From positions 1 to 58,217 of the forward strand of contig MEPB01000100.1 of the NCBI GenBank assembly GCA_001769385.1: DNA of 58,217 nucleotides. The letters are read 5' to 3'. The notes below the pieces were generated by a model. That model searched no databases. It was not told where the DNA came from and saw nothing but the letters and a program-made list of their open reading frames with translations. Below are positions 38,055 to 58,217 of the stretch, in pieces. The translations under genes were made by a program, and so were the position numbers. This stretch comes from Bacteroidetes bacterium RIFCSPLOWO2_12_FULL_35_15 (GTDB taxonomy: Bacteria > Bacteroidota > Bacteroidia > 2-12-FULL-35-15). Position 1 is the stretch's first letter, and each line of letters begins with the position of its first letter.

Positions 38055-41000
38055 TTATTGTCTGGTGATGGTATATGTTTCTGTTTTACTTCCGGCACTA
38101 TTAGTTGCAATGATAACAATAGTATTAATACCCATATTTAAATTTGCAGGAATGCTTAAATTTTTTGTTTTATTATTAAATGAAAATCCTGTAAAAGCGG
38201 CACCATTAATTTTTACACTTATTCCTGCAGCAGTTAATACATTTTCAAGTTTTAAAGTTATTGTATAAAGGCTATTTGTTGTTGTTTCGGAACGTGTGCC
38301 TGGAGAAATTAATTTTATCACAGGTGAAACTCTTCCTGTTGAAGCAGCAGAATCTGATCCTGCAGAAACATTGTCGGAATTAGTTACAAAAGGCTTTACA
38401 TCTATTTGATCATTCGAAATCACAGTTCCGGTATTTGTTATAGCAGTTCGAGTAATCGATACCGTTTTACTATCTGTTCCGGCTGAATTTGTTGCTGAAA
38501 CCACAATAGAATTATTGCCTAGAATTAAAGAAACTTTGAACGTCAATTTATTTGTACCAACCTGATAGGAAAAATTGGTCAGCGGTACTCCATTTAATTT
38601 TACCAAAATATTACTTGCGCTTTGCACATTTAATACCTTGGCAGTTACAGAGTAAAGTAAAGCATTGGAAGTTGAATTTGCTGTTGAAGGGGCAATAAAA
38701 CTAACTACTGGCGCAATTTCTTGAGGAGTAATAACAGGTCTGGAATAATTTATCAACTGGGTTTCCGAAACACTCCCACTTGCGTTTGATGCTGAAATTA
38801 CAAATGTATTTGCACCTAAAAACAATGCTTGGGTTATGGCAAGTTCTTTTGTTGAAGTATTATAAGTAAAATTTACCTGAACAGTTCCATTCACTTTTAG
38901 TGTAATATCATTTTTAGAATTTACTCCAATTACTTTTGCTAAAAAATTAACTGGAGAATGGGTCGTAGAAAATGGATTTGCAGAAGGAGTTATGAATGTG
39001 ATCACAGGTTTTGGCAAATGAACATCGGTCTGGTATAAAATTGATTGATTTTTAGAATCATTTCCACTTTGGTTTGTTGCCGTAATCACAAATGCATTTG
39101 AACCCGGTATTAAATTAGTAGAAATACTTAACGTTTTAGTTACTGAATTATATGAAAAATTCGGTGTTGAAATTCCATTTACAATAATTGAAATATCATT
39201 TTTAGAATTTACATTTTGTACACTTGCTTTTACTGTTGCATTATTTTGATTTGTAGAAAAAGGATTTGTTGTCGGTGAAGTAATCGTTACAATTGGTTTT
39301 GGCAATGCAACAACCGGGGTATAAATAATGGTTTGGGTTTCTGAATCGGCACCACTAACATTAGTTGCTGAAATAATAATACTGTTTGCACCCTGAATCA
39401 TATCCGCATTAAATGTTAATTGTTTTGAAACTAAATTATAATTGTATTTACTGGAAGGAAGCGGTCCATTATTAATAGTTATAGCAATTTGACCGGGAGA
39501 AGTAATGTTTTGAATACTTGCCGAAATGGCCATTGTATTAACTGAACAATTATATGGATTTGTATTCGGACTGGAAATAGTAATAATGGGAATAGGAGTG
39601 CTGTAGTTTGTGATATCCTGTTTAAAAATTACAGTAATTGATTTAGAATCATTTCCACTTTGATTATTTGCGGAAATTAAAAATGTATTTGCACCTTGAA
39701 TTAAACTAGTATTTAAACTAAATGTTTTAGAAGTTGGATTGAATGTAAAATTACTATTTGAAGAGCCATTCACAGAAATCTGGATCTGATTTTTTGAAGT
39801 TACATTTTGAACGCTTCCGGTAATTGTAATTGCTCCCTGATTAGTTGAAAATGGACTCTGTCCAGGATAAGCAATAGTTACAATAGGGGACGGAATTGCA
39901 TTTACAACTGTTTCATTAAAAAACACATTGGCTGATGCGCTTATACTTCCTGAAGAATTAGTTGCTGTAACAATAACTGAATTACTTCCATTATTAAGAA
40001 GAACAGGAAATGTTACAGAATGAGTATTTGGATCAAAAGAGAAGTTCGTAACAGTTATTCCATTGTAAATAATATTTATGTCATTTTTTGAAGCCACATT
40101 TTTAACATTCGCAGCAAATGAAAAGTTTTTTTGTTGAGAAGTAGCTGAAGCACCCTGAGGATTTGTAATTACTACAATAGGTTTTTGAGGAGTTACAGGT
40201 GGTGTATAATTATTTGTTGTGGTGGTAGTTGTTGTTGTGGCTGCCGGTTTTACTTTTCTGCCAAAACTGAACTTAAGCCAAATGGATGAATAATGATACA
40301 TATCGTTAGTCCCTGTAGGCACATTTGTATTTAACCATTGTTGTCCATCCAAAACATCATTTAAAGCCCAGGTAATTTTATGTTCCAACCCCATAGAAAA
40401 CCCTTTGGTGAATTGATAACCGATACCGACACCAACTGATGGCATAAATTTCCATTGTGGATTTAGGCTTCCTTCTGATATGGTTTCATAATTTCCATCC
40501 AGAAGATCATTCAATTGTCCAATGTTAGCGGAAGAACCTGCGGTTCCGGCTGAATCAATTTTCGCATAATCATAACGTTTATTATTTGCATTCAACTGGT
40601 CTGTTTTAGCAATAGCTTTCGTTAAACCAACTCCGCCAAATATATAGGGATAGATCTTAGTTTTTTCTCTTAATTTATTTGCACCTAAAATTAGTTCCAG
40701 TGAAAATTCTGAGATGCTTGTTTTATAATTCTGATAAACATATCCTCCATTTGAATAATAGTTTAATGTGGTATCATTAGTTCCGTTAAACACATTATTT
40801 TTGGCTATACCAAACGATTTTTTTGAATCTTGTCCGTAAGCGGTTGCGCTCAAATAACGAAGGCGCCATCCCCAATCAACAGGACTGGTTTTATTTTGAC
40901 AATACATCTGTCCGAATGTTAATCCTCCGGCACCACCAAGTTTTTTCATCTTAACATCACTCTTTAACCAGGAAGCACCAAAATTCAGCCCTAATTCAAA

Positions 41001-41081
41001 TGGATGATTCGTTTGAGCTGTTGAATGTTCAATAGATAAGAGAATTAATGCAGAAACAAGAATTGTAAGTATTTTTTTCAT
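38055..41081 (-). CDS. Outer-membrane-barrel-like protein fused to seven Ig-like repeats
   Basis: 1008 residues from the ATG at 41081 (MKKILTILVSALILLS); an in-frame ATG 72 bp upstream adds a leader with no signal features. Signal peptide to ~23 (HSTAQ). Residues ~25-275 look like a small outer-membrane barrel (FELGLNFGASWLKSD, YPYIFGGVGLTKAI, KFMPSVGVGIGYQFTKGFSMGLEHKITW, YHYSSIWLKFSFGRK). A Thr-rich linker of eight Thr follows, then seven ~95-residue repeats: PKPIVTITSPTTNPF, SVQNVNSKNDISIIVNG, FSYNSVTKTLSI, GANTFVISATNxSGNDSK. There is no T9SS tail; the protein ends TETYTITRQ. Probably a barrel presenting an Ig stalk. It is last in a seven-gene minus-strand run. Confidence 0.75.
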   Translation of the reverse strand: MKKILTILVSALILLSIEHSTAQTNHPFELGLNFGASWLKSDVKMKKLGGAGGLTFGQMYCQNKTSPVDWGWRLRYLSATAYGQDSKKSFGIAKNNVFNGTNDTTLNYYSNGGYVYQNYKTSISEFSLELILGANKLREKTKIYPYIFGGVGLTKAIAKTDQLNANNKRYDYAKIDSAGTAGSSANIGQLNDLLDGNYETISEGSLNPQWKFMPSVGVGIGYQFTKGFSMGLEHKITWALNDVLDGQQWLNTNVPTGTNDMYHYSSIWLKFSFGRKVKPAATTTTTTTTNNYTPPVTPQKPIVVITNPQGASATSQQKNFSFAANVKNVASKNDINIIYNGITVTNFSFDPNTHSVTFPVLLNNGSNSVIVTATNSSGSISASANVFFNETVVNAIPSPIVTIAYPGQSPFSTNQGAITITGSVQNVTSKNQIQISVNGSSNSNFTFNPTSKTFSLNTSLIQGANTFLISANNQSGNDSKSITVIFKQDITNYSTPIPIITISSPNTNPYNCSVNTMAISASIQNITSPGQIAITINNGPLPSSKYNYNLVSKQLTFNADMIQGANSIIISATNVSGADSETQTIIYTPVVALPKPIVTITSPTTNPFSTNQNNATVKASVQNVNSKNDISIIVNGISTPNFSYNSVTKTLSISTNLIPGSNAFVITATNQSGNDSKNQSILYQTDVHLPKPVITFITPSANPFSTTHSPVNFLAKVIGVNSKNDITLKVNGTVQVNFTYNTSTKELAITQALFLGANTFVISASNASGSVSETQLINYSRPVITPQEIAPVVSFIAPSTANSTSNALLYSVTAKVLNVQSASNILVKLNGVPLTNFSYQVGTNKLTFKVSLILGNNSIVVSATNSAGTDSKTVSITRTAITNTGTVISNDQIDVKPFVTNSDNVSAGSDSAASTGRVSPVIKLISPGTRSETTTNSLYTITLKLENVLTAAGISVKINGAAFTGFSFNNKTKNLSIPANLNMGINTIVIIATNSAGSKTETYTITRQ

Positions 41082-41142
41082 TTTAAGATAATTATCAATT
41101 TGGAAATGGAATACATAAATTATGCCGTGCAATTTATTTGCT

Positions 41143-41171
41143 AAAAAAGCCAAACAAAGTCCGGCTTTTTT
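41143..41171 (-). terminator. Terminator after the PorE-like gene
   Basis: AAAAAAGCC (41143-41151) and GGCTTTTTT (41163-41171) form a perfect 9-bp stem. On the minus strand the hairpin lies 22 bp beyond the stop at 41193 and has its own U-run, so the barrel/Ig gene downstream may be expressed less or separately. Confidence 0.75.
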
Positions 41172-41192
41172 ACAAATAAATTTATTAATTTT

Positions 41193-44100
41193 TTATTTGT
41201 TTGAAATTTTAAATTCGGTTCTCCTGTTTTTTGCATGCTCCTCTTCGCTACATTCCACATTCTCATAACAGTTATTAACAAGTTTTGTTTCCCCGTAACG
41301 TTTTCCGGTTAAACGTTCTTCCCTAATGCCTTTAGAAACAAAATAGTCAATAACCGAATTATTACGCTTCTGAGAAAGCAAAAAGTTAAATCCGGCAGAT
41401 GAACGTGAATCAGTATGTGAAGAGATTATAATTTTTAATTTCTTATCATTTTTCATGCTATCAATTAATTTATCCATTGTTTTTTTAGCTTCAGGCAAAA
41501 TTTTATAATCGCCATAATTAAAATAAATAGTTCCGATAACCATTGAGTTATCAATGAGAGTTGAATTTTTTACAACTTCTGCATTATTAACAGTCGTGTT
41601 TTTTACTACTTCGATAGGAATTATTTTTGTGTTATTTGTTTTCGAACTATCGTTTTGATTTGTATTTTTTACGACTTCTGAAGTCCCATCATTTGTGTCG
41701 GATGTGATCGGGGTAATCTTGTTTTTTACAATAAGTTCTTTAAGCTGCGTATCTTCCACATATAAAGCGCCTAATTTTACCTGATCACTTGGTAAAATAG
41801 TAAATCTGAATTTTCCATTCGTACGGGTAAATTCCTTCACTACTACTCCTTTTTCATTCGTTAACAACAATTTATTATATTTTTTTAGCTCGGGATCGTT
41901 TTCATCAAGTGTAAAAGAAAAGGTTTGGTCAGCGTGTAAATTTGCAAACAGAAATTTACCTTCCTTGTCAGTTTTTGTGGATTGTAAAATTGCATCTTTG
42001 TCGTTTATCAGGTTTATTATAGAGTTGATCAACGGGGATTTATTTTCAGTAATTAACTTTCCTCTCAAATCAAAACGCAATTCACTATCTTCTATCGACA
42101 TTGATTTTAAAGTATTTTTATCAGCTGCAAGAAATGCAAATTTGAAATCACCTTTATTTCCGGTAGTGGTTGCTAACATTTCTTTTCCACTTTTGTTGGT
42201 GATTGTTATTTTTGTGTTTGGTGCTAAATCAGGATCACTCTCATCTACCTTCACTAAATATTTTTGATCCGCAGGCAAATCTGTAAAATTAAATCCACCG
42301 GAAGCATCAGTGAAAACCGTTTTTATTATTTCACCTTTTTCATTCACTAAATTAACTTTTTTATTTGCTAAGGGCTTTGATGGATTTTCACCAAATAATA
42401 AATTTCCTGCTATCGAAACATCATCTCCTGCATCCATCTCAACCAGCGTATTGGAATCTGCAGAGAGTAAAGAAAAATTGAAAGCACCATTTTTACCGGA
42501 GGTAGTGGATTGCATTTCTTTACCATTTTTATTGGTGATACTAATTTTCGTGTTTGGCGCTAGTTCAGTATCACCTTCATCCACCTTAACCATAAAATTT
42601 TGGTCCGAAGGTAAATTAACAAAAACAAATGCTCCAACAGCATTGGTAGTAACAGTCTGAAGGATTTCACCTTTATCATTCACCAGGTTAACTTTGGTAT
42701 TTGCAAGTGGTTTTGACGGGTTTTCACCAAACAATAAATTACCCGCAATCGTCACATCTTCAGCTCCTCCAATCTCAGGCAATGAATTTGGATCAGCAGG
42801 TAGATTTTGGAAAACAAACTTTCCGCCTTTGTCATTTATAACTGTTACACGAATAATTTTCCCTTTTTCATCTGACAGGTAATATCTATTTTTTGCAGCA
42901 ATTGCCGGATCATTTTCATCTAACTTTACTAAATATTTTGAATCGGGATCAAGTTTGTCAAACTTAAAAAAACCTGTACTATCAGTAATAGAAACATTGA
43001 GAATACTTCCATCTTCGGCAATAAGCATTACTTTAGCATTCCTTGCCGGATCATTCAGATTTTGACTGAACAATATTTTTCCCGACACCGTAAGAAAGTT
43101 ATTAAGTGTAATAAAACTGTAAATATCATCAGCTCCTTTTCCGCTTGTTCTATCGGAAGAAAAATAACCGGCAGTATTATCATCCGAAAAAACAATTCCA
43201 AAATCGTCTGTTGAGGAGTTTAATGGAGATCCGAAATTTTTTATTGCCGAATATTTATCATCAATTTTTGTTGCTGAAAATACATCCAGTCCACCAAATC
43301 CTGAATGCCCATCTGAAGAGAAGAATAACATACCATCTTTACGGATGTATGGAAATACTTCTGATCCTGCGGTATTAACATTTGAGCCAAGATTTTGTGG
43401 TTGCGCCCAATTATCACCCTCTTTTTTACAAAAATAAATATCCATTCCTCCAAAGCCTCCGGGCATATCTGATGCAAAAAACAAATACTGGTCATCTCCT
43501 GAAAGACTTGGATGTGCAACTGAATAATCATCACTATTGTATTGAAATGGTTTTACTTTATTCCAGGATTTTTCACTTTTTGCAGAATAAAACAACTTGG
43601 CACGATTCACAAAATTTTTATCTTTTTTACTTGTTTCGTAACCAACACGCGTAAGATACATCGTATTTTGGGTAGAGTTATAACAAACCGGTCCATCGTG
43701 GTAAATTGAATTTATTTGCCAGGAAAGAGCTTTTACCTTTTTTGACAATAAAACAGCACCTGTTTGATCTGTTTTTATTTCCGAGGAATAGACATTTAAA
43801 AATGGTTGCTTGTTCCATGAATACGTATTATCATTCACCATATCTTTTGTTCTGTCAGAAACAAAAACCAATTGATTTTTATAAAATGAAGGCCCGAACT
43901 CCGAATGAATAGTATTTATTTCATCAACGAAAGTAATATCCATTTGCCGTGTTTTCGAGATCCAGATTTTTATATCATCACAGGATTGTACAGAAATTTC
44001 AACTTGTTTATCATTAGGGACAACATTGGAATATATTTTAAATTGTTCTTTCGCTTCATCAATTTTATTTATATTTTTTAAAACCATTCCGTAAAAAAAA

Positions 44101-44366
44101 TGATTTACCGGTGCAATAGTATCTTGCTTCATCAACCGTGCATAATACGTTTCGGCCTGTTGATAGTTTTTTGTTAAACGATAGGAATTGGCAATTTTTT
44201 CAAGCGCCTCAGCATTGTCATTCTTTTTTATTATTTTTTTATACAGCTGTATAGCTTTTGCATAATCATAATTATCATAGTACTTATTGGCGCGTTTTAA
44301 TTGCGCAAATGAAGACGTAACAAAAAGTGAAAATATAAATGTGAAGCAAATGAATGTTATTCTCAT
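41193..44366 (-). CDS. PorE-like OmpA-family protein (TPR, PD40, four beta-repeats, OmpA)
   Basis: 1057 residues. Signal peptide 1-21 (SSFAQ). TPR region ~22-120 (YYDNYDYAKAIQLYKKIIKKNDNAEALEKIANSYRLTKNYQQAETYYARLM). A PD40/WD40-like propeller spans ~140-410 (HPSLSGDDQYLFFASDMPGGFGGMDIYFCKKEGDNW, YIRKDGMLFFSSDGHSGFGGLDVF). Then four ~110-residue carboxypeptidase-regulatory-like repeats (about 41740-43110; IAGNLLFGENPSKPLANxKVNLVN...). The C-terminal OmpA peptidoglycan-binding domain has GTIYFNYGDYKILPEAK, SSHTDSRSS and NRRTEFKI. PorE (T9SS) has the same TPR-PD40-CRD-OmpA order but one CRD; the extra repeats are unusual. It lies 60 bp downstream of a PorP/SprF gene. Confidence 0.85.
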   Translation of the reverse strand: MRITFICFTFIFSLFVTSSFAQLKRANKYYDNYDYAKAIQLYKKIIKKNDNAEALEKIANSYRLTKNYQQAETYYARLMKQDTIAPVNHFFYGMVLKNINKIDEAKEQFKIYSNVVPNDKQVEISVQSCDDIKIWISKTRQMDITFVDEINTIHSEFGPSFYKNQLVFVSDRTKDMVNDNTYSWNKQPFLNVYSSEIKTDQTGAVLLSKKVKALSWQINSIYHDGPVCYNSTQNTMYLTRVGYETSKKDKNFVNRAKLFYSAKSEKSWNKVKPFQYNSDDYSVAHPSLSGDDQYLFFASDMPGGFGGMDIYFCKKEGDNWAQPQNLGSNVNTAGSEVFPYIRKDGMLFFSSDGHSGFGGLDVFSATKIDDKYSAIKNFGSPLNSSTDDFGIVFSDDNTAGYFSSDRTSGKGADDIYSFITLNNFLTVSGKILFSQNLNDPARNAKVMLIAEDGSILNVSITDSTGFFKFDKLDPDSKYLVKLDENDPAIAAKNRYYLSDEKGKIIRVTVINDKGGKFVFQNLPADPNSLPEIGGAEDVTIAGNLLFGENPSKPLANTKVNLVNDKGEILQTVTTNAVGAFVFVNLPSDQNFMVKVDEGDTELAPNTKISITNKNGKEMQSTTSGKNGAFNFSLLSADSNTLVEMDAGDDVSIAGNLLFGENPSKPLANKKVNLVNEKGEIIKTVFTDASGGFNFTDLPADQKYLVKVDESDPDLAPNTKITITNKSGKEMLATTTGNKGDFKFAFLAADKNTLKSMSIEDSELRFDLRGKLITENKSPLINSIINLINDKDAILQSTKTDKEGKFLFANLHADQTFSFTLDENDPELKKYNKLLLTNEKGVVVKEFTRTNGKFRFTILPSDQVKLGALYVEDTQLKELIVKNKITPITSDTNDGTSEVVKNTNQNDSSKTNNTKIIPIEVVKNTTVNNAEVVKNSTLIDNSMVIGTIYFNYGDYKILPEAKKTMDKLIDSMKNDKKLKIIISSHTDSRSSAGFNFLLSQKRNNSVIDYFVSKGIREERLTGKRYGETKLVNNCYENVECSEEEHAKNRRTEFKISNK

Positions 44367-44426: not shown

Positions 44427-45368
44427 TTACAGATAGCGTGGCGAAAGCATTTTGTTTTTATAAATATTAAAATCATAACTAATCATTATTTCATGACTTC
44501 CTCCTGCAGCTTTTCCAATTTTGTTTAATCCAAAATCATACGAATAGCCTAACTTAAACTTATCTGTAATATTAAATTGAGTATAGGCAACAATACCATA
44601 ACTAGATCGAATGGATACACCGAACCATAATTTCTGATCCAACAAAAAGCTTAAATTAACATCGGCAGTTGGTGGCGAATGTTTAGCGGCTTTCAGCATA
44701 CAGGAAGGATTAAAAGTCAACTTATCGGATATTGCCCATGCTTTTCCGAGTGTAAAAAAGACATGTGGAGAAAATTGCGCATCATCCCCATTTTGGTTGG
44801 AAACACTAGTCAATCGGCCATTATATAAATGCGTTACGCTAAAACCTGCATACATCGAATTCGTATTATAATAAACTCCGGCATCTGCAGTAGGAACAAT
44901 TTTTGAAGTGACATTGTTATCATAAACATTGTCATTAGGGTCTTTGTGAGTTACATCTGTCCAGTTATAAGTAAATTTATAAATTCCGACCCTCAAACCA
45001 AAAGCTAATTTTCCATTTTGAATCGGAATACGATACGCATAAGAACCCATTGCACCAATACTTTTCTTTGGACCTATCTGATCAGCAATAATTGCAAATC
45101 CTAAACCTACTTTCTTTTTTCTTAATGGTGCATTTGCTGTTATTGATTCAGTTTTAGGGGCACCATCAATTCCTGTCCACTGGCTTCGTAAAAACATGGC
45201 AGCACTTAATGCTTCCCTGCTCCCCGCGAATCCGGGATTAATAGCCATTTGGTTAAACATGTACTGGCTATATTGCGGATCTTGTTGTGCAAATATTTCT
45301 CCACCGGAACCTTTCCAAAGGAAAGGTAAAAGGAAAATAAGTGCCGGAATAATAATTACTTTTTTCAT
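44427..45368 (-). CDS. PorP/SprF-family type IX secretion membrane protein
   Basis: 313 residues. The mature start QQDPQYSQYMFNQMAINPGFAGSREALSA is diagnostic of PorP/SprF. RSQWTGIDGAPKTESITANAPLRKKKVGLGFAIIADQIGPKKS follows, then beta strands to a final MISYDFNIYKNKMLSPRYL. These outer-membrane barrels pair with T9SS type B cargoes and hold them at the surface. The signal peptide is odd: after MKKVIIIPALIFLL comes PFLWKGSGGEI, encoded by a palindrome (45310-45326), before FAQQDP. It sits between the small CHU_C gene and the PorE-like gene, the usual cassette order. Confidence 0.92.
   Translation of the reverse strand: MKKVIIIPALIFLLPFLWKGSGGEIFAQQDPQYSQYMFNQMAINPGFAGSREALSAAMFLRSQWTGIDGAPKTESITANAPLRKKKVGLGFAIIADQIGPKKSIGAMGSYAYRIPIQNGKLAFGLRVGIYKFTYNWTDVTHKDPNDNVYDNNVTSKIVPTADAGVYYNTNSMYAGFSVTHLYNGRLTSVSNQNGDDAQFSPHVFFTLGKAWAISDKLTFNPSCMLKAAKHSPPTADVNLSFLLDQKLWFGVSIRSSYGIVAYTQFNITDKFKLGYSYDFGLNKIGKAAGGSHEIMISYDFNIYKNKMLSPRYL
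45299..45328. repeat. Palindromic element inside the PorP/SprF signal-peptide codons
   Basis: CCTTTCC-AAA-GGAAAGG (45310-45326), a perfect 7-bp stem, followed on the minus strand by TTCCGGTGGAGA. It keeps the reading frame and encodes residues ~15-25 (PFLWKGSGGEI), between the hydrophobic core and the expected signal peptidase site. Confidence 0.75.
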
Positions 45369-45407: not shown

Positions 45408-46181
45408 TTAATGTGTTACTTCCACATATCCTTTATATGTTTTACCACCTGCTTCCACTAAATAAAAATAAGTTGCATCCTGTAATGGGTTTCCAGCATT
45501 ATTTTTTCCATCCCACACAACCGTTACATTATCATAATTTTTCCGGTTCCATACCAGATCTCCCCAGCGATTATAAAATGAAACTTTATTCTCCCCAATG
45601 TTTTCAATCCCGTCAATTATCCATTTATCATTATTACCATCACCATTAGGTGTGATACCTTTGTAAAAAACGAGTTCAGCACCACATTCTACCTGATCTT
45701 CGGTAATAATTACCGAATCGCTGATAGTATAAGTAGTATCTGTAATGATGTAATAATAAGTACCGGGTGCAAGATTGGTAACGATACTGTTTGTCGAATT
45801 TAATGGTGGCCCCCAGAAATAGGTAACCGGCCCTGTGCTTGTAAGCACCGCTAATGATGCACTACCATTGTTTGCACCGATACAGGTTGAATTTACACTC
45901 ATGCCATCAACAGAAAGGAAATTATTTATTGATGTAGGTTGATGAAAACCTTGTGTTATTGTTTTTATTGTAAAAGGTGCAGTTGCAGGTGAATACGTTT
46001 GAACCATAACTTCACCAATAGTATAATCAATTTTATTACCGGCAGCTGTTGTACCTGTATTACCGGAAGTACCTAATACCTGTTGCATAGGTGGATTAGT
46101 TTGCACTTGAGCAAATCCAGAACTTACTAATGCGAACATTAGCAGATAAAGGAATACTATTTTATTTTTTATATTTATCAT
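45408..46181 (-). CDS. Small T9SS type B cargo with SprB-like repeat
   Basis: 257 residues from the ATG at 46181 (MINIKNKIVFLYLLMFALVSSGFAQ); 16 further open codons upstream lack a signal. After the signal peptide come VQTNPPMQQVLGTSGNTG and an IDYTIGEVMVQTYS beta domain. A SprB-like repeat spans ~100-165 (VNSTCIGANNGSASLAVLTSTGPVTYFWGPP...GTYYYIITD). The C-terminal CHU_C domain is ITPNGDGNNDKWIIDGI...SFYNRWGDLVW...WDGKNNAGNPLQDATYFYLVEAGG. It is probably the direct cargo or partner of the PorP/SprF protein encoded 39 bp downstream. Confidence 0.85.
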   Translation of the reverse strand: MINIKNKIVFLYLLMFALVSSGFAQVQTNPPMQQVLGTSGNTGTTAAGNKIDYTIGEVMVQTYSPATAPFTIKTITQGFHQPTSINNFLSVDGMSVNSTCIGANNGSASLAVLTSTGPVTYFWGPPLNSTNSIVTNLAPGTYYYIITDTTYTISDSVIITEDQVECGAELVFYKGITPNGDGNNDKWIIDGIENIGENKVSFYNRWGDLVWNRKNYDNVTVVWDGKNNAGNPLQDATYFYLVEAGGKTYKGYVEVTH

Positions 46182-49200: not shown

Positions 49201-50472
49201 TCCATCTATGCCCGTATTTGTTGATCCTTGTAATTCCAAAGATATATTTTCGTTGTTGTATGCATCTCCCTGAGCTATGGTTACATAATGAGATGCGCCT
49301 GTGTATTTTCCCGGGGAAGCAGTACCAACGCCCACATTCACGGCATCTCCTCCAGTGCCTCCAAGAACCATGCTATTGCTTGCATTTACCAAGGCATTTT
49401 TACCAATAGCGATTGCATTTTGCAGATTTGAGGCCGAAGCAACACCGGGGCCTGAATTATAACCTAGAAAAACATTATAACTTCCGATGGTATTGGCGTT
49501 GGCCGGGGTTGCTGTATAACCAGCCTGAAAACCCAATGCCATATTACCTGTACCGGAAGTATTACTATACAATGCATTCACTCCGTTGGCAGTATTAGAA
49601 TTTCCGGTATTGTTTAAATAAAGCGCATAACCTCCAATGGCAATATTTTCGTTTCCTGTTGTATTAAAACGGAGCGCATTCATTCCGATAGCGGAATTAT
49701 AGTTTCCGGTAGTATTGAAACGCAGTACATAATTTCCAATTGCGGTATTCTGAATACCATTTACAGTTGAAGTTGGCTGGTTTAAGAAAAGAGCTTCAAC
49801 CCCAATTGCAATATTATCGGTGTTCCAGGCAGTACCGGCATTGTTAAAGGACTGCGTATTTAAAGCTTTAAATCCGATGGCAATATTTCTACTTGCAGTA
49901 GTATTGTTAAGAAGTGAAGAACCTCCACTTGCGATATTTTGTAATCCTGTTGTGTTGGCATTACCTGCCTGATATCCAAAAAAAGTGTTGAATAAAGTTG
50001 GATCTATTCTTCCTGCTTTTTGGTTGTTTACACGTATATTAAAAGGTATATTATCTGAAGTGCCGATAAAATTGGTACCATCCACTGTGCCTGTATTTCC
50101 TGTAAGAGACCATGCACTGCCTGCAACCGAATTACCGGAAGCACTTAACATTTGCCAATAGGTTCCATCATACACTAAATTCACAACCTGTCCTCCTCTA
50201 ATATCCTTGTCCAATAAATTAGTTGTACCACCTTCTTTTTTAATTAAGATAGCTCCGGTTGAATTCACATTAATTGTTGGGAAGGAATCACATACAACAT
50301 TCGCTTTAAAAGTTACCTGGATACCTGATTTTAAAGTAAATTCACCAGGTACATCCAGAGTATAAGCCGAGCCTACTCCACCTGAACTGATTTCTACCTG
50401 TGCATTAACAGTAATATTCGCTGTTATGAACAGCAGAAAAAAGATTCGTGTTATTATTTTTTTATTTATCAT
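46264..50472 (-). CDS. Giant trimeric-fibre protein with YadA-like heads and C-terminal peptidase S74 domain
   Basis: 1402 residues from the ATG at 50472 (MINKKIITRIFFLLF); eight open codons upstream are excluded. Signal peptide to NAQ (~25), then an N-terminal module starting VEISSGG that is shared with the next gene. Two YadA-like head blocks of GNENIAIGGYALYLNNTGN repeats, at ~160-380 and ~905-1045, each led by the same TVDGTNFIGTSDNI segment. Several GNVGIGTxxP modules lie between them. The C-terminal S74 domain (from Ser1261, SDLRFKKEI; then IGFIAQDVEKIFPELV) is an intramolecular chaperone that cleaves itself off trimeric phage and bacterial fibres; a coiled coil (VIQSLTQSVGVLKEENVNLKKSNIQLE) closes it. 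No T9SS tail. Confidence 0.87.
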   Translation of the reverse strand: MINKKIITRIFFLLFITANITVNAQVEISSGGVGSAYTLDVPGEFTLKSGIQVTFKANVVCDSFPTINVNSTGAILIKKEGGTTNLLDKDIRGGQVVNLVYDGTYWQMLSASGNSVAGSAWSLTGNTGTVDGTNFIGTSDNIPFNIRVNNQKAGRIDPTLFNTFFGYQAGNANTTGLQNIASGGSSLLNNTTASRNIAIGFKALNTQSFNNAGTAWNTDNIAIGVEALFLNQPTSTVNGIQNTAIGNYVLRFNTTGNYNSAIGMNALRFNTTGNENIAIGGYALYLNNTGNSNTANGVNALYSNTSGTGNMALGFQAGYTATPANANTIGSYNVFLGYNSGPGVASASNLQNAIAIGKNALVNASNSMVLGGTGGDAVNVGVGTASPGKYTGASHYVTIAQGDAYNNENISLELQGSTNTGIDGNVARIDFGNYTASSNLIARIESKTDGSGNMGNIIFSTHNGTALSEAMRVDNSGQVGIGTKPSQKFELKDGNFLVSNSSAAGEIRLAEPAASGTNYTAFKAPVQAANITYTLPASLTAGNFLSTDASGNLSWAALPASPTASNGLTKVVNDIQLGGTLTANTTISQANFNMIYNLAGTGNFDIQDAGTSKFYVKNTGFVGINNSAPSFALDVIGSGNGTTIAAQDNNLTNGQVLYLSSASTTGTGGSASKIITIQRSGANSIASHTAYGINSSVTNTGSTSTNISGYFFASGATNNYAIVVPSGGGKVGIGTTSPIAALDVVGQIYSHGYIVAAGSAIDWNNGNNQVLQAVGGGAVTFVNMQDGGNYTAIITDATSRTYTFSQAGLTFYFTPPNGPTVAAQSTLYRFNRIGTSVYVDWKTVGNPLPTTWGLTGNSGTVDGTNFIGTSDNISLNFRVNNLKAGRIEPNSLGSVAFGYLAGISTNAGTLNTAIGAEALYSNTSGLFNTAIGQGALSANVTGSSNTANGVQALTNSTGSNNTAIGESSLYNNIGGGNNTAIGYHAGYTSSTGSNNTFIGYGADLYSATQHSKAAAIGYNAKVDADNAIVLGGTGADAVNVGIGTTIPTSKLEVSGEITVGTGIYSNIRSHNETSQFGLYSSKTSYKGAYFILNSAGHFDTPGSMVFTHGDYTAPAPASSILFRYANNGGISNDFAIVSSGNVGIGTITPPSRLAIVSFAADGAGVPSTGINLLNNSNGLGPWGQGGIWADGSAGYNGDLIFGTDGDGINNVNITEKMRIKTDGRVIIGTCATPPTIGTARLYVAGAIRASTLITTTALACSDLRFKKEIKPLHNSLEKVLRMQGVNYYWKKDEFPDWEFGNKKQIGFIAQDVEKIFPELVNTDEDSLGYKSVDYSKLTPVLVEALKELNVKMETQQQVIQSLTQSVGVLKEENVNLKKSNIQLESDFEKIKAQLGINFEVKK

Positions 50473-50515
50473 TTTGATAAATTTTATTTTAAACATATGT
50501 AATATTAAAAATACC

Positions 50516-53500
50516 TTATTTCCTTGCTTTTGCCTCTAATCCCAATACTGTTCTGATTTTTTCTATTTCGGCTTTCATAACAGCATTATCACTTTTTATT
50601 TTATTTATCTCCTCATCTTTATTCCCGTTTTCCGCTTTCAGCGATTCAATTTGCTTTTGCTGAGATTCCACTTTAACATTTAATTCTTTTATTGCATTAA
50701 TTGCAGCCCAGTGAATAGGATCCGCATTGAGTTCTAAGTAACCATCCGGACGTACATTTATGGCATCCGGAATTACAACTTGTACTTCCTGAGCTACAAA
50801 ACCAATAATTTCTTTATCGGAAGGAAGCCCGAGAACATTATCCTTTTTATAATTAAAGCGTATTGTGCGTAGTTGTATTATTTCTTTAAGCCCATATTCA
50901 TAATTGGAGCGAACATCTTTAAGCCTGATGTCAGAAGTATTTGTCCAGGCAGTACCTGTAGATAAACCAGCTGTTCCTACAACACTTAACCTGTGCGTTC
51001 CAGGTGCAGATGTCCCCATACCTATATTTCCATTATTTAATATTGTCATTCGTTCTGTTGGCGTATTTGTGTTTAGTGGTGCAGTAGAAAATACTAATCT
51101 GCTACCTGCATAGGCACTAGTAGTAAATGCCTGAGAAGCTTCTGCATATATTGTTGCTCCCCATTGCATAGATGCGTTAGCTGAATTATATCCAAAAAAA
51201 TCAATTGCACCCAAATCATCACCCGAAGCTACAGCAAGCGGAGCCGTTGCAGTGCCACGTCCTTTTTGAAAAGCTAAACTGGTACCAAGAGCAAAGCTAG
51301 AATAGTTTTTAATTGTCTGAGAAATAAAACCTGAGGTATTAGAAGAAATTGTAAGAAGTTCAGTTGGATTGTTAGTACCAATACCTACATTGCCGTTTCC
51401 TTTTATTCTCATTTTTTCAGTTATGTTGACATTGCTAACACCATCGCCATCGGTGCCAAAAATCATATCCCCGTTATATCCTGCATAGCCATCGGACCAG
51501 ATACCAGCATGTCCCCAGGAATTGTTCAGAAAAGTAAGGCCGTTACTGAAAGTTCCTGCACCATCGGCAGCAAGAGAAACCATAGATAACTTTGATGCAG
51601 GAGCGTTTGTCCCAATTCCAAAATCACCTGCTTTGTAAACAATATTTTGACCAGTCCCTCCATCATATACAAACCAGTATTGTTGAGTAGAGGTGGTTGA
51701 CCATCCGGTAGATGCCTTATAAACACCATTTTCATTGAAAGTAATAGTGGAATTACCTGTATTTTGTCCGTTTGCATCAAGTATTATTCCCGGGGCATCA
51801 GTGGCTCCTGCCCCATTACTTTCTATCAGTAACTTTGGTGATCCTGTAGATTGAAAAATATGAAGTTTTTGGGAGGGTGCAGCTGTTGCAATACCAACAT
51901 TGCCGTTAGGTAAATAATTTAAAGGCTGAATCCAGGAGGCGCCATCAAAATATGCTAAATAAGCCATATTTCTTTCAGCAACAGTAGCCCAGGCATTTCC
52001 TCTTGCCCCAAAAGCCCAACCTTTAGTACTTACTGCGCCCATTTGTAAAGAACCAGCGGCATTATTTAATGTAACTAAATTAAAAGCAATATCATCGCCA
52101 GCTGCAGCTCCTTGTGTAGATAAAGCAATATTTGCGTCATTCGGGTTATGAATAGTTAAATTTGCAGGAGGTGCAGTAGTTCCAATACCTACAAAACCTG
52201 CATTCGTAATTCTCATTTTTTCAGATTGTATATTGGTACCGCTGGGTGTTGTATTAAAAGTTATTCTACCTGGCATGTTATTTATCCCGGGTGTCCCATC
52301 CACTTCAAACTCTATTGTTCCGGTAGGCCAATAAGATGTTGATGATGCACCATCTGCTCCCCATCCCCCTATTTGACCTGTAATATCATTGAGATTGACG
52401 ATGGTATTGCTTCCTATAGCCGGATTTCGACTTTTTGTCATCATTATTCTTGGCTCTGTATTGTTGGCAGCAAAATTCTGAAGTAAAAATGCAGCCTCAT
52501 ATTGGCTTATACCTGCAACATTCAGTTTGCTTAAAGGGGTACTTATTCCAATACCCACATTACCTGCATTATCAATACGCATACGTTCAGCATTTGCAGC
52601 GGTAGCATCCTTTGTAGTATAAAAAACAAGAGCGGTTGGCAAGTCGGCTCCTCCACCGCTAGCGGCATCTCGCATTCCCCGTATGGCGGCTTCATCATAC
52701 ATTCCACCGTTTGCACCAAACCCTAACATACCCAGAGTACCACCTGCACCGGCCACCGGCACCCCGGTCATTAAATTTATATTTCCCCCATAAGCACTGG
52801 CAGTATTACTCACATGGACAACTTGCGGAAAACTTGCAGCTGCCTGAGTCATCGTGATAGTAGTCCCATTATCCGTAATGCTTGAATTTCCTAAAGCATT
52901 GGCAGCAGTCCATTTAGGAATCGTGTTAATAACACCTCCACTTAATATGCCTGCAGTTGACCAGGTTAGTGTACCTGAACCATTATTACTTAAAAAGCCA
53001 CTCGTATTCGCGGCAGGGAAAGTTGTAGCAGCTCCGTTTAATTTTATGATGTTACCTGAAGAGTTCACCTGAAATGGTGATGAAGCACCAGATCCAACGG
53101 AGAAAAGGGCAGATGGAGTGTTTGTTCCAATACCGACATTATCGGTTAATGTCGTTTGAAAAATATTAGATCCTGATTTTGTCCAAGGACCAACGGAGTT
53201 TGGATCAGCCCAGGAAGCCAATCCTGTTGCATCTGATTTTAAAATATAATTTGCTGCCGCACCGGTTGGCATAGTTAAATTTCCTCCAATGAATGTGTTA
53301 TTAGGAGTATATACCCCCCATTGGATACTTGATGCATCTTTATAGGACAATGCACCAAAAATAGTTGCGTTCCAATCAGAACCAATTACCCCTGCTGAAT
53401 TTGGAAAATCCTGATAATTATATCCTGCCACTGCAACGGAGTAATTATTACCCCAATTACTTGCACCTTTTATTGCTGCATCTACAACTGTTTCTCCCCA

Positions 53501-54673
53501 ACCTGTTCCCCCATTTGCAGGTACATTACTACCATCTCTATATGATAAAATCCCTGTATGATCCGGACCAAAATCCGCTATAGGACTCTCGTTATATAAA
53601 TCATATTTAGCATTTGGTGTTGTTCCATTGATACCGATTTTTCCAGTTGTATTTATTCTCATTCTTTGTACATCTGAAGTCTTAAATACTAAATCCTGAG
53701 CATCAGAAGTTCCAATATAATCAGTAGCAGGATTGGTTCCTGAATTACCTACCGTTGACCAATCCGGGTTTGCAGGTATTACATCAAATACCTTCCAGGC
53801 TGTACCATTATAATAATTGAATTTATCACTTCCGGTATTATAAACTAACAGACCGGTGGCTGGCGTAGAAATTGCATTCCTTTGAGCCAAAGTCATACGT
53901 GGAACTAAAACACCTTTAGAAGTTGAAGTTAAATCCAATAAAGCCGAAGCATTTGGTGCAATTGTTCCCATCCCAATACTACCACTATCTTTCAGAACCA
54001 ATGGGGCACCAAGTAAGGCGTTACTATAGAAGAACATCCCTTGTTGAGCATTGTTGTAATATTGAGCCCAATTTTCAGAACCGCTTGTTTTAAATTTGAT
54101 GCCTGTGTTTGCTGTTCCATCAATTCCTAGCATAGCTTGTGCACCGGTATCAACGACAGATAATCTCTCGGTAGGAGTATTTGTACCAATACCTATATTT
54201 CCACTGGCATTAATTCTCATTCTCTCTGTATTGTTAGTCCTAAATAATAAAGGAAGAGCATCTGTAGTTCCTAAAAAATTTGTAGCTACATTAATTCCAG
54301 TGTTTCCCTTAAGCGACCATACACTATTCGCTGAAGCAAGGGCAATACCGGAAGCACTTAACATTTGCCAATAAGTTCCATCATACACTAAATTCACAAC
54401 CTGATTTGCAATAATATCACCTGACACTAAATCTGTTGCACCACCTTCTTTTTTAATAGTTTTTGGGAGAGTCCCATTAACATTCATAGTTACCGCTGCG
54501 GCACATGCTATATTGGCTTTAAAGGTTATCTGGATACCGGCCTTAAGAGTAAATGCTCCCGGTATCGTTAGTGTATATTCCGTAGGTGTTCCACCAGAAC
54601 TGATTTCAACCTGTGCTTCTGAAGACAAAAAACAAGTGGTGAAACCTAGAATAAATAATAATTTTCTTTTCAT
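50516..54673 (-). CDS. Giant trimeric-fibre protein with peptidase S74 chaperone domain
   Basis: 1385 residues. Signal peptide 1-20 (LSSEAQ). The N-terminal module (VEISSGGTPTEYTLTIPGAFTLKAGIQITFKAN...YDGTYWQMLSASG) matches that of the downstream neighbour. The shaft contains ten copies of an RMRI-x-x-x-GNVGIGT-x-x-P-x-x-x-L-x-V module, spaced by variable beta domains, among them the [18 protein letters not shown] cassette. No YadA head. The C-terminal S74 domain starts at Ser1247 (SDIRLKDV) with IIGFVAQEVQVVIPDAI, followed by a coiled coil (KVESQQKQIESLKAENGNKDEEINKIK). Only 43 bp separate it from the next gene. Fibre length and modules suggest a surface or tail-like appendage. Confidence 0.87.
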   Translation of the reverse strand: MKRKLLFILGFTTCFLSSEAQVEISSGGTPTEYTLTIPGAFTLKAGIQITFKANIACAAAVTMNVNGTLPKTIKKEGGATDLVSGDIIANQVVNLVYDGTYWQMLSASGIALASANSVWSLKGNTGINVATNFLGTTDALPLLFRTNNTERMRINASGNIGIGTNTPTERLSVVDTGAQAMLGIDGTANTGIKFKTSGSENWAQYYNNAQQGMFFYSNALLGAPLVLKDSGSIGMGTIAPNASALLDLTSTSKGVLVPRMTLAQRNAISTPATGLLVYNTGSDKFNYYNGTAWKVFDVIPANPDWSTVGNSGTNPATDYIGTSDAQDLVFKTSDVQRMRINTTGKIGINGTTPNAKYDLYNESPIADFGPDHTGILSYRDGSNVPANGGTGWGETVVDAAIKGASNWGNNYSVAVAGYNYQDFPNSAGVIGSDWNATIFGALSYKDASSIQWGVYTPNNTFIGGNLTMPTGAAANYILKSDATGLASWADPNSVGPWTKSGSNIFQTTLTDNVGIGTNTPSALFSVGSGASSPFQVNSSGNIIKLNGAATTFPAANTSGFLSNNGSGTLTWSTAGILSGGVINTIPKWTAANALGNSSITDNGTTITMTQAAASFPQVVHVSNTASAYGGNINLMTGVPVAGAGGTLGMLGFGANGGMYDEAAIRGMRDAASGGGADLPTALVFYTTKDATAANAERMRIDNAGNVGIGISTPLSKLNVAGISQYEAAFLLQNFAANNTEPRIMMTKSRNPAIGSNTIVNLNDITGQIGGWGADGASSTSYWPTGTIEFEVDGTPGINNMPGRITFNTTPSGTNIQSEKMRITNAGFVGIGTTAPPANLTIHNPNDANIALSTQGAAAGDDIAFNLVTLNNAAGSLQMGAVSTKGWAFGARGNAWATVAERNMAYLAYFDGASWIQPLNYLPNGNVGIATAAPSQKLHIFQSTGSPKLLIESNGAGATDAPGIILDANGQNTGNSTITFNENGVYKASTGWSTTSTQQYWFVYDGGTGQNIVYKAGDFGIGTNAPASKLSMVSLAADGAGTFSNGLTFLNNSWGHAGIWSDGYAGYNGDMIFGTDGDGVSNVNITEKMRIKGNGNVGIGTNNPTELLTISSNTSGFISQTIKNYSSFALGTSLAFQKGRGTATAPLAVASGDDLGAIDFFGYNSANASMQWGATIYAEASQAFTTSAYAGSRLVFSTAPLNTNTPTERMTILNNGNIGMGTSAPGTHRLSVVGTAGLSTGTAWTNTSDIRLKDVRSNYEYGLKEIIQLRTIRFNYKKDNVLGLPSDKEIIGFVAQEVQVVIPDAINVRPDGYLELNADPIHWAAINAIKELNVKVESQQKQIESLKAENGNKDEEINKIKSDNAVMKAEIEKIRTVLGLEAKARK

Positions 54674-54686
54674 ATTTATTAAAGAA

Positions 54687-57600
54687 TTATTTCAATAAAA
54701 CTTTTGCAGTACCAGCACCCGCCACTGATTCTAAATAAACACCAATGCTGGTACCAGCCGAAGGGATAGCTACACTTCCAGCTTTACCGGCTGATACATT
54801 ACCTGTAATACAATGTTGGCCTCTTACTGCTCCCCCTGCATCAACATTAACTGTAACAACACCAGCTACGGCCACTTTTGCAAGTGCACCGCTGGCAACA
54901 GATTCGGTTACAACACCCATTGCAGAATAGTTACCGGCAGTAGCGGTTGTGGTAAATGAATTATTTATACTGCCAATTATAACTATATCACCTACAGTAC
55001 AAACTCCACCTGTATTGTTAGTTAAAACTATTGTAATGGCCGTGTTAATACCTGATGACGCATCACCAATATTCATATTACCAGTATTGGCATCAATTCT
55101 CATTCTTTCTGTATTTGCTGTCTTAAATACTAATGGTTGAGTATTGGTGGAACCTATGAATTCGGAACCAGATAAAGAATTACCGGTTAGTAACCATCCG
55201 GAACCACCGGAAGAAACTAATGTCCAATTTGGTATTGCGGGTGTTCCGCTATTATAATAAAAACCTGCAGTACCATCTGTTTGATATATTATTAAACCTG
55301 TTGCAGGGGAAGCTATTGCTGTTTTATTGGCAAGTGTCATCCGAGGAACTAAGAATCCTTTGGTAGTGGAAGTTAAATCCAATAAAGAAGATGCTTCCGG
55401 CGAACTGGTTCCAATACCAATATTTCCACCTGTATTAATATAACTGCTACCAGTTCCACCTGACAAAAGGATAGTATTTGTCCCACTATTTTTTATTCCA
55501 ATTGAGCCTGATGCTCCGGCTCCTGTTCCTGCTGAAATATTTACAGCATCTATTACATTTGTTTGATCACGTAATAATATTCCACCACCGGCAACAACAA
55601 ATTTATCTCCCGGAGTTGTTGTCCCAATTCCAATGTTACCGGTATTTTTGATAACCATATTCACATTGCCAGCAATAGATCCGTCAGCTGTGGTAATAAA
55701 TTCAAGACGAGTCGGTAAATCGCCAGCACCACCTGATGCAGCATCTCTTTTGCAAAAAATGCCCCCTTGTGCAGTACCCGCATCTTGTGAATCAGCAAAA
55801 TATATTGCACCAAGAATAGTGTTTACCGTAGCAGCAGGTGTATTTAGAACAGCAGAAAAAGTAGGAGCGAATCCATTTGAAATAGATAATAAGGTAGAAG
55901 GTGAACCTGTTCCAATACCCACATTTGTTCCACCATCAAAAATAAGGGAGTTACCAAGAGTAGTACCATTTGGCGTCCATTTTGGCACATAATTTAAAGT
56001 ACCGCTTCCTGTAACTGTTCCTGCAGCGGGAGTATTCCATGTTGGCGCACCCGCTCCATTGGAGGTAAGCACTTGCCCTGATGTTCCTACGGCTGTAATA
56101 CCCATTCCACTAGCTGTAGAATATACAGCACCTCCATTAACAGCAGTAAGGTTTGTATTTGTTCCGCCATTGGCAAGAGGTATTGTCGCAACCGTTCCAA
56201 TAGTACCTGCGGCACTGTTAGTAATAATTCCCGCTGTTGTTAATTTAGGGAAAGAAACAGTATTACTTGCACCACCAATTGCAACCGCTCCTGTAGCAGC
56301 GCCTGTATTAATATTTGTTACTGCTGAACCACTGGTATTGATATTAGATGCACCAGTTATAGTTACTGAGCTACTAAATGCAGCAGCAGCCGACCATGTT
56401 TTAGCACCTGCAGCAGTTTGTGCATTTGTTAAATCCACAAAGTTTTGAGTGGATGAACCTGTACCTCCATTCGCAATTGGTAATATTCCGGTAAAAGTAA
56501 TATTGGGTGTTGTTCCTCCGCTGGAAGCTATATTACCGCTACCTGTTACATTTGTTACAGTTCCTGCCGCACTGGAAACCAAGGTCCAGACAGGGACAGC
56601 AGGTGTACCGCTGTTATAGTAAAAACCAGCTGTGCCATCAGTCTGGTAAATCATTAAACCTGTTGCAGGTGTTACTATTGCTGTTTTATTTGCAAGAGTC
56701 ATTCTTGGAACTAAGAACCCTTTGGAAGTAGAAGTTAAATCCAATATCGAAGATACATCAGGAGATGAAGTTCCTATTGCTACCCTACCATCAGGAGAAA
56801 TAGTCATTCTGCCTGTTGCACTAATTGATCCGTTATCTGTAGTGACAAATGTTAATGCTGTTCCATGGGCAATCCCTGAAAAGTTTTCAGTAGCAGTAGC
56901 CATCATTCCTGCATTTGGCCCATTTGAACTAAATGCGGCTCCATCGTAACCAGAAAGTACAAAAGCACCAAGATTATCCCCAACCAATACAGCAGTAGGA
57001 AGTAATACAGTGCCTCTCGACCTCATCATTCCAATTCCGCTTTGAATATTTGAAGTAATATCTTCCGCAACCTGAACCGTCAAAGAAACCGGATTATTTC
57101 CTGCAATATGTAATTTTGAAGAAGGAGCATTAGTTCCAATACCAATATTACCTGCAGCGTCAAGTCTCATTCTCTCTAAATTCGTTGTTCTGAATATTAA
57201 TGGCTGTGCATCCGTATTTCCTAAAAAATTTGTTGCAGGATTAATACCTGAATTACCAAAAATTGACCATGTATTTGAGGTTCCACTCGAAGAAATAATT
57301 TTTTTCCATATGGCTCCATTAAAATAACAAAAGGCAAGACTGTCCGTATTATATATCAATAATCCGGTGGCAGGTGTCGCGATGGCAGCCATTTGAGTCC
57401 CATTCATTCGGGGAGTCAATAAACCTTTTGTAGCTGATTGAACATCCAGCATTGCACTGACATCCGGTGCTGCAATACCGATACTAACATTACCATTAGT
57501 AGAAATATTCATTACATTCCTATTCCCATTATAGATATCCTTAATTGTAAATCCGGTTGATGAATTTCCATCCTGACCAATAAACCATTCGCTTAGTCCG

Positions 57601-58217
57601 GTTTTTAAACGGTAACCCGTCTTAAAGTTACCTCCGCCATTTTGAACAGTAACCTCAATGGGATCAGTCGTTCCATAAACATGAAGTAAAGAAGCTGGAA
57701 CTGTCCCAATGCCAATTTTAGTTCCATCGTTATACAAATTACTTGTTGCTGTCCAATCTGTTCCATCGTGGTAAATAGTTTGTCCTGTAGTACCAATAAC
57801 ACCAAAAGTTCCGGTAGCTCCGGTTGTTCCATCAATTCCAGTGGCTCCCGTTACTCCCTGAATACCTTGTGAACCCGTTACTCCTGCTATACCTTGAATA
57901 CCTTGAGATCCGGTGGCTCCATCAATTCCGGTGGCTCCCGTCACTCCCTGAATACCTTGTGAACCCGTTACTCCGGCTATACCTTGAATACCCTGAGATC
58001 CGGTAGCTCCATCAATTCCTGTTGCTCCGGTTACTCCCTGAATACCTTGTGAACCTGTTACTCCGGCTATACCCTGAATACCTTGAGATCCGGTGGCTCC
58101 ATCAATTCCTGTTGCTCCCGTTACTCCCTGAATACCTTGTGAACCCGTTACTCCGGCTATACCTTGAATACCCTGAGATCCGGTGGCTCCATCAATTCCT
58201 GTGGCTCCCGTTACTCC
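54687..58217 (-). CDS. Fibre protein with collagen-like region; 5' end outside the window
   Basis: The last 1176 codons are visible; the frame stays open to the right edge, so the start and signal peptide are not in the window. The beginning is a collagen-like Gly-x-y region made of a 30-residue repeat ([18 protein letters not shown] and so on; 90-bp period, 57800-58217). The shaft has the same GNIGIGTxxP and [24 protein letters not shown] modules as the two downstream genes. The end is not S74 but a ~95-residue beta domain ([51 protein letters not shown]...[20 protein letters not shown]), somewhat like small trimeric capsid-cement domains. It ends 13 bp before the next gene on the same strand. 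Confidence 0.85.
57800..58217 (-). repeat. 90-bp tandem repeat coding for Gly-x-y collagen-like sequence
   Basis: The same word recurs 90 bp apart (for example GGCTCCCGTCAC at 57932 and a close copy at 58022) and continues to the window end. At least four and a half units are visible. Copies differ mostly by single third-position changes. Confidence 0.85.

Follow-up and report, generated by a model that had tools for sequence, protein, structure and literature searches.

The 58,217-nucleotide contig MEPB01000100.1 of Bacteroidetes bacterium RIFCSPLOWO2_12_FULL_35_15 (hereinafter the window, which is the whole of contig C100 in a genome of 5.39 Mb and 110 contigs) raises the question of how giant, phage-like fibres could be held on the surface of a cell. 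Starting from the right end of the window, on the minus strand, a row of genes leads from three fibres (A, B and C) to a small cargo protein of the type IX secretion system (T9SS), a PorP/SprF barrel, a PorE-like OmpA protein and a predicted barrel with Ig-like repeats. The locus appears, with moderate confidence, to encode a system that displays phage-like trimeric fibres on a T9SS anchor, the N-terminal domain of the cargo holding a fibre by its N-terminal end. Judging from sequence, the cargo that carries this domain is a strong candidate for the part that holds the fibres on the cell. Both halves of such a system, namely, the fibres of the MAT type and the complexes of PorE, PorP and type B cargo, are already known; their combination appears to be new, and no description of a MAT-like fibre paired with a T9SS adaptor was found in searches of open-licence PMC papers. 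PMC9478572 and PMC13288928, considered for a connection between tail fibres and the T9SS, proved to be unrelated.

The N-terminal domain of the cargo, which has no existing name and is denoted IGE in this analysis, comprises about 50 residues at the start of the mature protein, with the consensus AQxLxxxVIxxxGG...SxGSLSxTxGE...TLxxxxxxLTQGFQQP. The domain begins at a median position of residue 22 (range 2-94), where a signal peptide would end, and is shared by cargoes that otherwise differ, including type A cargoes of about 165 amino acids, type B cargoes of about 245 amino acids and one protein of 2714 amino acids. The last of these, from Polaribacter glomeratus ATCC 43844 (L131:11336-19480), has IGE at its N-terminus and is encoded directly after a 386-amino-acid MAT_N gene, so that IGE is also found on giant proteins. 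Comparison of IGE with Pfam yielded chance-level matches only (two families, each with one of 21 members, E ~0.02), and the search of PDB chains with the IGE profile gave nothing convincing, the matches being antibody stretches with the best E-value of 0.016.

The fibres beside IGE cargoes begin with a different domain, PPQGINYQAVARN...SVPYALYA, here MAT_N. All 89 such domains from relatives that were scanned match the NCBIfam family Bdello_MAT_N (NF053851) with E <= 0.001 (3.8e-14 at best); the one member seen in full scores 40.3 bits, with the family cut-off at 60, and covers positions 12-78 of 162. The AlphaFold2 model of MAT_N is a beta-sandwich (pLDDT 86) for which fold searches of the PDB and of viral models gave nothing at E <= 0.001, and the MAT_N sequence profile gave nothing convincing against PDB chains. 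The fibres resemble the MAT fibres of Bdellovibrio bacteriovorus, as these are described in PMC10769870, in having a signal peptide, a conserved N-domain (probable for window fibre A), a long shaft and mosaic C-terminal tips, in occurring with and without S74, in the SDxxxK motif, and in being encoded by the cell and not by a phage. They differ in their linkage to an IGE-bearing T9SS cargo and, in the case of window fibres B and C, in the N-terminal module. In that description, nothing in the PDB is structurally homologous to the MAT N-domain, and the surface element that this domain binds awaits identification; the main text contains neither 'Bacteroid' nor 'secretion' (PMC10769870).

The two domains were traced across 60 genomes from the class of the window (taken as Bacteroidia), all at least 90% complete and spanning 54 genera, with two genomes from the window's own genus. 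IGE (94 matches) and MAT_N were each detected in 37 genomes, the two sets being identical, and neither was present in the other 23. Among the 56 genomes with SprA, 36 have both domains and 20 have neither, with no discordant case; of the four SprA-negative genomes, three have neither domain and one (G080) has both. In one genome with 18 MAT_N and five IGE matches, SprA is in pieces, with several stop codons (G078:C1:2603711-2610850), which reflects either sequencing errors or a decayed T9SS.

Co-occurrence extends to the immediate gene neighborhood. The 80 regions fetched, accounting for 83 of the 84 IGE matches outside the window's genus, yielded 75 IGE open reading frames (ORFs); left out of this number are 10 matches in G000 and G043, which belong to that genus, one match that was not fetched (G054:C284), and eight regions that yielded no IGE ORF by the ORF rules (L214, L238, L245, L254, L257, L262, L276 and L277), four of which (L214, L238, L254 and L277) contain a MAT_N ORF. 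No fewer than 57 of the 75 IGE genes directly adjoin a MAT_N ORF on the same strand (46 downstream, 14 upstream, 3 on both sides), and the gap is shorter than 60 bp in 37 of the 46 downstream cases; MAT_N lies within two genes of IGE in 60 cases and within three in 63. In L219, a MAT_N match (G053:C99:28341-28730) is located just past the fetched stretch, within a same-strand open frame of 1186 amino acids. The IGE and MAT_N models were seeded mainly from loci with both domains, so that unlinked IGE variants may be under-detected. A large effect of this kind is argued against by the fact that the linked share is no lower for weak matches than for strong ones, with 12 of 13 linked under 30 bits, 23 of 29 at 30-50 bits and 22 of 33 above.

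In a second sample of 198 genomes from the phylum (taken as Bacteroidota), IGE was found in 22, MAT_N in 60 and SprA in 154, the three sets being nested, and 26 of the 27 IGE matches outside G000 have a same-strand MAT_N match within 3.5 kb. The absences in this sample are less certain because fewer candidates per genome (21 at most) were scored. The genomes share ancestry and, accordingly, the hypergeometric values for this sample overstate the significance; the two surveys also overlap by one genome in the linkage sets (G083) and by two genomes in the co-occurrence samples. A third survey started from named GTDB contigs with MAT_N, and the best 80 of at least 521 confirmed stretches gave 77 loci with 103 MAT_N and 23 IGE ORFs; 21 of these 23 directly adjoin a MAT_N ORF, and a single ORF separates each of the remaining two from one.

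The fibres themselves lack a T9SS C-terminal domain (CTD), which was identified in none of the 82 complete MAT_N ORFs of the third survey and in one of the 71 complete MAT_N ORFs of the first, that one being doubtful, whereas the S74 motif is present in 13 and 10 of these, respectively; both features were counted by sequence patterns that differ slightly between the counts, and not with Pfam. The C-terminus of a fibre is taken by the tip or by S74, leaving no room for a CTD, and therefore an anchor with a CTD supplied in trans makes sense. The absence of CTDs from the fibres also favors a variant that overlaps with the display reading, namely, that the cargo attaches, already in the periplasm, to the N-domain of the fibre and escorts the fibre through the T9SS translocon, with anchoring being secondary. 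The restriction of MAT_N to SprA-positive genomes in the phylum sample (60 of 60) points in the same direction; however, the outer nesting within SprA is weak evidence because a single family supplies 19 of the 20 listed genomes without SprA (a further 24 are not listed). In the class sample, G080 encodes MAT_N and IGE with no SprA detected at 95% completeness, and a trimeric fibre of more than 1000 amino acids would be a very large passenger. The escort variant appears rather unlikely.

The IGE genes recur in two layouts: either a type A IGE cargo is followed by a fibre, or, as in the window, fibres are followed by an IGE-CHU_C cargo, PorP and PorE. By pattern, a type A CTD is present in 51 of the 75 IGE genes, 40 of which have MAT_N directly downstream; a type B CTD is present in 10, with PorP directly after in eight and PorE two or three genes on in nine; 13 genes show no CTD, and one is truncated at a contig end. 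The first layout is found in the genome of the window as well, where a small type A T9SS cargo, similar to the window cargo at the start of the mature protein, stands immediately ahead of further fibre genes that have S74 or kelch tips (L009, L010, L011 and L065); an S74 gene in L008 has no such neighbour. The sequence-only reading of the window had tied the fibres to the T9SS through PorP and PorE, and this link is rejected because most fibre-cargo pairs lack both genes, PorP being located within two genes downstream of only one of the 51 type A IGE genes. The same reading held that fibre homologues without PorP/OmpA neighbours would split the locus into unrelated parts; such homologues were found, and it is the PorP/OmpA part that they separate from the rest. 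The linking element is the cargo N-domain, IGE, a feature that this reading did not mention. In five regions (L206, L210, L211, L215 and L216), a small, fibre-less type A IGE cargo adjoins a gene of 381-385 amino acids that resembles, by reading, an iron-containing alcohol dehydrogenase; all five genomes have MAT_N elsewhere.

The features of the window that bear on the argument are as follows.

38055 to contig end, minus strand: seven ORFs, by ORF calls.
54687..58217, minus strand: fibre A, with collagen-like repeats, a fibre shaft and a C-terminal tip, the 5' end lying beyond the contig; from ORF, repeat, Pfam and phage-family matches.
57819..58217, minus strand: collagen Gly-X-Y repeat array in fibre A, 90-bp unit, 4.4 copies, 93% matches, truncated at the contig end.
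50516..54673, minus strand: fibre B, with a signal peptide (by eye), N-module, shaft, S74 and a coiled-coil-like tail (by eye).
54344..54613, minus strand: N-module of fibre B ('ISSGTG' module).
50762..50935, minus strand: S74 domain of fibre B, SDIRLK (residue 1247), E 1.4e-7.
46264..50472, minus strand: fibre C, with a signal peptide (by eye), N-module, repetitive shaft, S74 and a coiled-coil-like tail; alternative ORF start at 50496.
50143..50400, minus strand: N-module of fibre C, from sequence comparison with fibre B.
46513..46692, minus strand: S74 domain of fibre C, SDLRFK (residue 1269), E 6e-18.
45408..46181, minus strand: T9SS cargo of 257 amino acids, with a signal peptide (by eye), the IGE domain, a weak SprB-like repeat and a type B CTD (CHU_C/TIGR04131).
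45933..46106, minus strand: IGE domain, candidate fibre-docking domain.
44427..45368, minus strand: PorP/SprF-family outer membrane barrel, likely the cognate shuttle/anchor of the type B cargo; TIGR03519, 271.6 bits, cut-off 90.55.
41193..44366, minus strand: PorE-like protein with TPR, PD40, CarboxypepD_reg repeats and an OmpA domain, from Pfam.
38055..41081, minus strand: predicted barrel with Ig-like repeats, found after the PorE-like gene in several same-genus genomes.

The signal peptides of all window proteins were assigned by eye. The ORF calls agree with the sequence-only reading in giving seven closely spaced genes in one direction, and its gaps of 13, 43, 82, 39 and 60 bp are correct with starts at 54673, 50472, 46181, 45368 and 44366; the PorE-like gene and the barrel gene (start 41081) are separated by 111 bp. 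Between the cassette genes, there are no terminator-like sites on the minus strand, the frequency of which is not elevated in the region (14 compared with 13.4 in shuffled sequences).

Fibre A is collagen-like (Pfam match, E 6e-9), as had been proposed, and fibres B and C carry S74 with the SDxxxK motif, a trait of the MAT superfamily. The YadA head proposed for fibre C was not confirmed: Pfam gave no match to a YadA head or to a C-terminal trimeric anchor, the hallmarks of a YadA-type trimeric autotransporter, in any of the three fibres at E <= 0.1. The N-modules of fibres B and C are 66% identical, which bears out a shared N-terminal module in these two fibres; a relationship of this module to MAT_N was rejected (hhalign probability 0.5%, with a five-row profile). 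No T9SS CTD was found on the three fibres with Pfam.

All three fibres match the phage tail families phrog_9942 and phrog_18345, and with phage S74 tail spikes and fibres they have in common modular shafts and, in B and C, the S74 chaperone/protease domain. A remnant of a prophage or of a phage-tail-like particle would explain these matches. However, fibres B and C have signal peptides and all three stand in a row with T9SS-related genes, which make up the rest of the cassette, relatives have fibres with MAT_N, the domain of cell-encoded fibres, at the same place, and no phage structural family was detected among the five neighbouring window proteins that were scanned with Pfam (the other window ORFs being unscanned). 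A phage origin of the locus was rejected on these grounds as extremely improbable.

The CHU_C cargo and the PorP/SprF barrel expected after the fibres were both confirmed. The cargo shows the traits of a type B T9SS cargo, with a C-terminal CTD that scores 48.4 bits against TIGR04131 (cut-off 35) and matches CHU_C with E 1.5e-22, and with PorP 39 bp downstream. The next protein has all four elements of the PorE architecture by Pfam (TPR, beta-propeller, CarboxypepD_reg and OmpA, with TPR exactly at the cut-off of 27 bits). It falls below both equivalog cut-offs (342.2 of 600 bits for T9SS_PorE and 424.6 of 620 bits for CHU_0125_OmpA), so that the expected domain set is in place and the product is PorE-like but not filed as PorE. 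For the barrel with an Ig stalk, the matches to both parts are present but below the Pfam cut-offs (E 3.5e-5 for the barrel). In a same-genus genome, G023, the barrel gene adjoins a gene that, by eye, resembles a sigma factor (L094:2-2197), with the fibre, cargo, PorP and PorE genes missing between the two, as if the cassette had been lost. The window also encodes, at 28004-35068, a T9SS protein of 2354 amino acids with GBD_T9SS_assoc, PKD and CHU_C domains and a 498-bp tandem repeat of 5.4 copies (30361-33069); the cassette PorP is the only PorP on this contig.

Comparable arrangements are known from PorE-PorP-type B complexes. In Porphyromonas gingivalis, PorE and PorP form a complex with the type B cargo PG1035, and PorE is reported to bind peptidoglycan (PMC9143113); two type B substrates depend on PorP/SprF shuttles for secretion, Flavobacterium johnsoniae has operons in which a type B substrate is encoded together with its shuttle and a PorE homologue, and PorP/SprF beside a type B cargo is described as common though not invariable (PMC12618676). 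The window likewise combines a type B CTD cargo, an adjacent PorP/SprF and a PorE-like OmpA protein, and the expected outcome is again a cargo at the cell surface with a tie to the wall. Unlike in the window, no fibres or IGE-type N-terminal domains are seen in the complexes described in these two papers, and the window cargo, a small protein, has more the look of an adaptor than of an effector. The gliding adhesin pair SprB/SprF also combines a type B adhesin with an SprF barrel (PMC9143113, PMC12618676), but the SprB adhesin has its own CTD, whereas here the CTD is on the small partner and none was found on the fibres.

The PorP/PorE cassette by itself is generic. The genome contains 27 PorP/SprF matches above the cut-off and, by reading of gene lists, cargo-PorP-OmpA groups without fibres (L067, L068 and L072), as would be the case if a fibre operon merely happened to precede one of many unrelated PorP-PorE cassettes. 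Against such chance neighbourhood, the order of fibre(s), CHU_C cargo, PorP and PorE is found again in genomes of the same genus and in members of seven further families (L217, L219, L227, L236, L239, L240 and L252), and there is the linkage of IGE genes with MAT_N fibres (57 of 75). Barring mis-assembly of the fetched genomes, this conservation is judged to refute chance neighbourhood, which is very improbable. The expectation that the gene order would be conserved in other genomes holds for this row, but most fibre-cargo pairs occur without PorP and PorE.

Three of these loci (L217, L219 and L252) have a row consisting of a fibre with the tip motif of fibre A, one fibre with the B/C N-module, where the window has two, and then cargo, PorP and PorE. 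The fibre-A-like fibre contains collagen repeats in L219 and L252 and is truncated by the contig end in L217. In all four loci with the fibre A tip motif, including the window, the next gene encodes a fibre with the B/C N-module, which suggests, from sequence and in four cases only, that fibres B and C may dock on the tip of fibre A; the tip pattern was written from sequences already seen, so that these cases are an observation and not a test.

The start of fibre A probably lies on another contig of the same genome. Contig C1 (L071) ends within a MAT_N+collagen ORF (L071:10241-11083), directly after a type B cargo. In the same-genus genome G010 (L084, L085 and L105), homologues of the C1 genes (43-84% identity) and of the cargo, PorP, PorE-like and barrel genes of C100 (46-74% identity) stand in one row on a single contig, with two MAT_N fibres between the C1-type and the C100-type genes. 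In L099, the row is repeated except that the first type B cargo is missing, the fetched stretch stopping just past PorE. Because of the gene order in G010 and L099, the N-terminus of fibre A is probably the MAT_N+collagen ORF of C1. A direct overlap was sought by comparing the contig ends, which do not overlap in sequence. To the left of the fibre locus, C1 has a conserved block that encodes a sigma-70 family factor, a zf-HC2/TonB_C protein, a DUF4154 (YfiR/HmsC-like) protein, a TPR protein and a HAMP-SpoIIE protein (L071:2331-7714). A gene of the size of the latter (594-602 amino acids) is found directly or one gene before a MAT_N fibre in 13 of the 77 loci of the third survey, its identity being confirmed for L105 and L099; the HAMP-SpoIIE protein is a possible regulator of fibre expression.

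From these gene orders and domains, we infer the following scheme for assembly and display of the fibres. The 257-amino-acid cargo would be exported by the T9SS via its type B CTD and passed to its cognate PorP/SprF barrel, with the PorE-like protein as its link to the cell wall. IGE, as the first segment of the mature cargo, would face outward and dock the N-terminal end of a trimeric fibre, which in the window would be fibre A, with its probable MAT_N start, serving as the base. Fibres B and C, with their different N-module, may attach at the tip of fibre A. The collagen and beta-helical shafts would trimerise the fibres, and the S74 domains would act as chaperones and then cleave themselves off; cleavage at the SDxxxK serine was demonstrated for a MAT (PMC10769870).

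Several observations weigh against this scheme. In the structural model of the window cargo, confidence is low over the IGE region (pLDDT ~40, with a 13-row alignment). The fibre that adjoins this cargo in the window, fibre C, has the other N-module and not MAT_N, and the assignment of MAT_N to fibre A rests on gene order, the ends of C1 and C100 having no overlap. Only 4 of the 10 type B IGE genes have MAT_N directly upstream; among the remaining ones, MAT_N is two genes upstream in L240 and downstream in L218, other fibres are present in L217, L219 and L252, and L228 has no fibre. In the five regions with the dehydrogenase-like gene, the type A IGE gene has no fibre beside it, and IGE-PorP-PorE without an adjoining fibre is found in L089 and L228. 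From the side of MAT_N, only 21 of the 103 ORFs of the third survey directly adjoin an IGE gene, and 38 of the 60 genomes with MAT_N in the phylum sample lack IGE, 33 outside the class of the window and five within it (G145, G202, G234, G238 and G246), which breaks the perfect match seen in the class sample. No ORF in the regions of the first survey or the loci of the third carries IGE and MAT_N together. Furthermore, Bdellovibrio is not known to have a T9SS. Its cells nonetheless show MATs on their surface (PMC10769870).

The occurrence of MAT_N without IGE, the lack of IGE-MAT_N fusions among the ORFs examined and the surface MATs of Bdellovibrio (PMC10769870) would all fit a co-regulated adhesin kit without contact between the parts, in which fibre and IGE cargo would be co-expressed and active at one surface, the cargo as a T9SS surface protein in its own right and the fibre with a separate anchor, as in Bdellovibrio. 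However, IGE, which is common to otherwise differing cargoes, is found only in genomes with MAT_N (37 of 37 in the class sample and 22 of 22 in the phylum sample), and co-regulation does not require keeping this domain, so that its conservation weighs against co-regulation alone. Such a kit appears unlikely.

Display of the fibres by docking to IGE remains the preferred reading and leads to a tentative generalization, namely, that an IGE-type N-terminal domain might be a general in-trans adaptor by which Bacteroidota export and/or anchor CTD-less trimeric fibres of the MAT type, those with S74 being self-cleaving. The publication that introduced the MAT name leaves open how such fibres are held on the cell (PMC10769870), and the linkage described here offers a small, testable partner in Bacteroidota. 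If the reading is correct, the MAT N-domain would gain a first identified partner on the cell surface, and the role of the T9SS would extend from proteins with their own CTD to the display, via an adaptor, of fibres that have none. Many 'tail fibre' proteins of Bacteroidota would then be T9SS-dependent surface appendages, and a working role could be assigned to many proteins of the phylum that have fibre tips of the S74, collagen or another kind.

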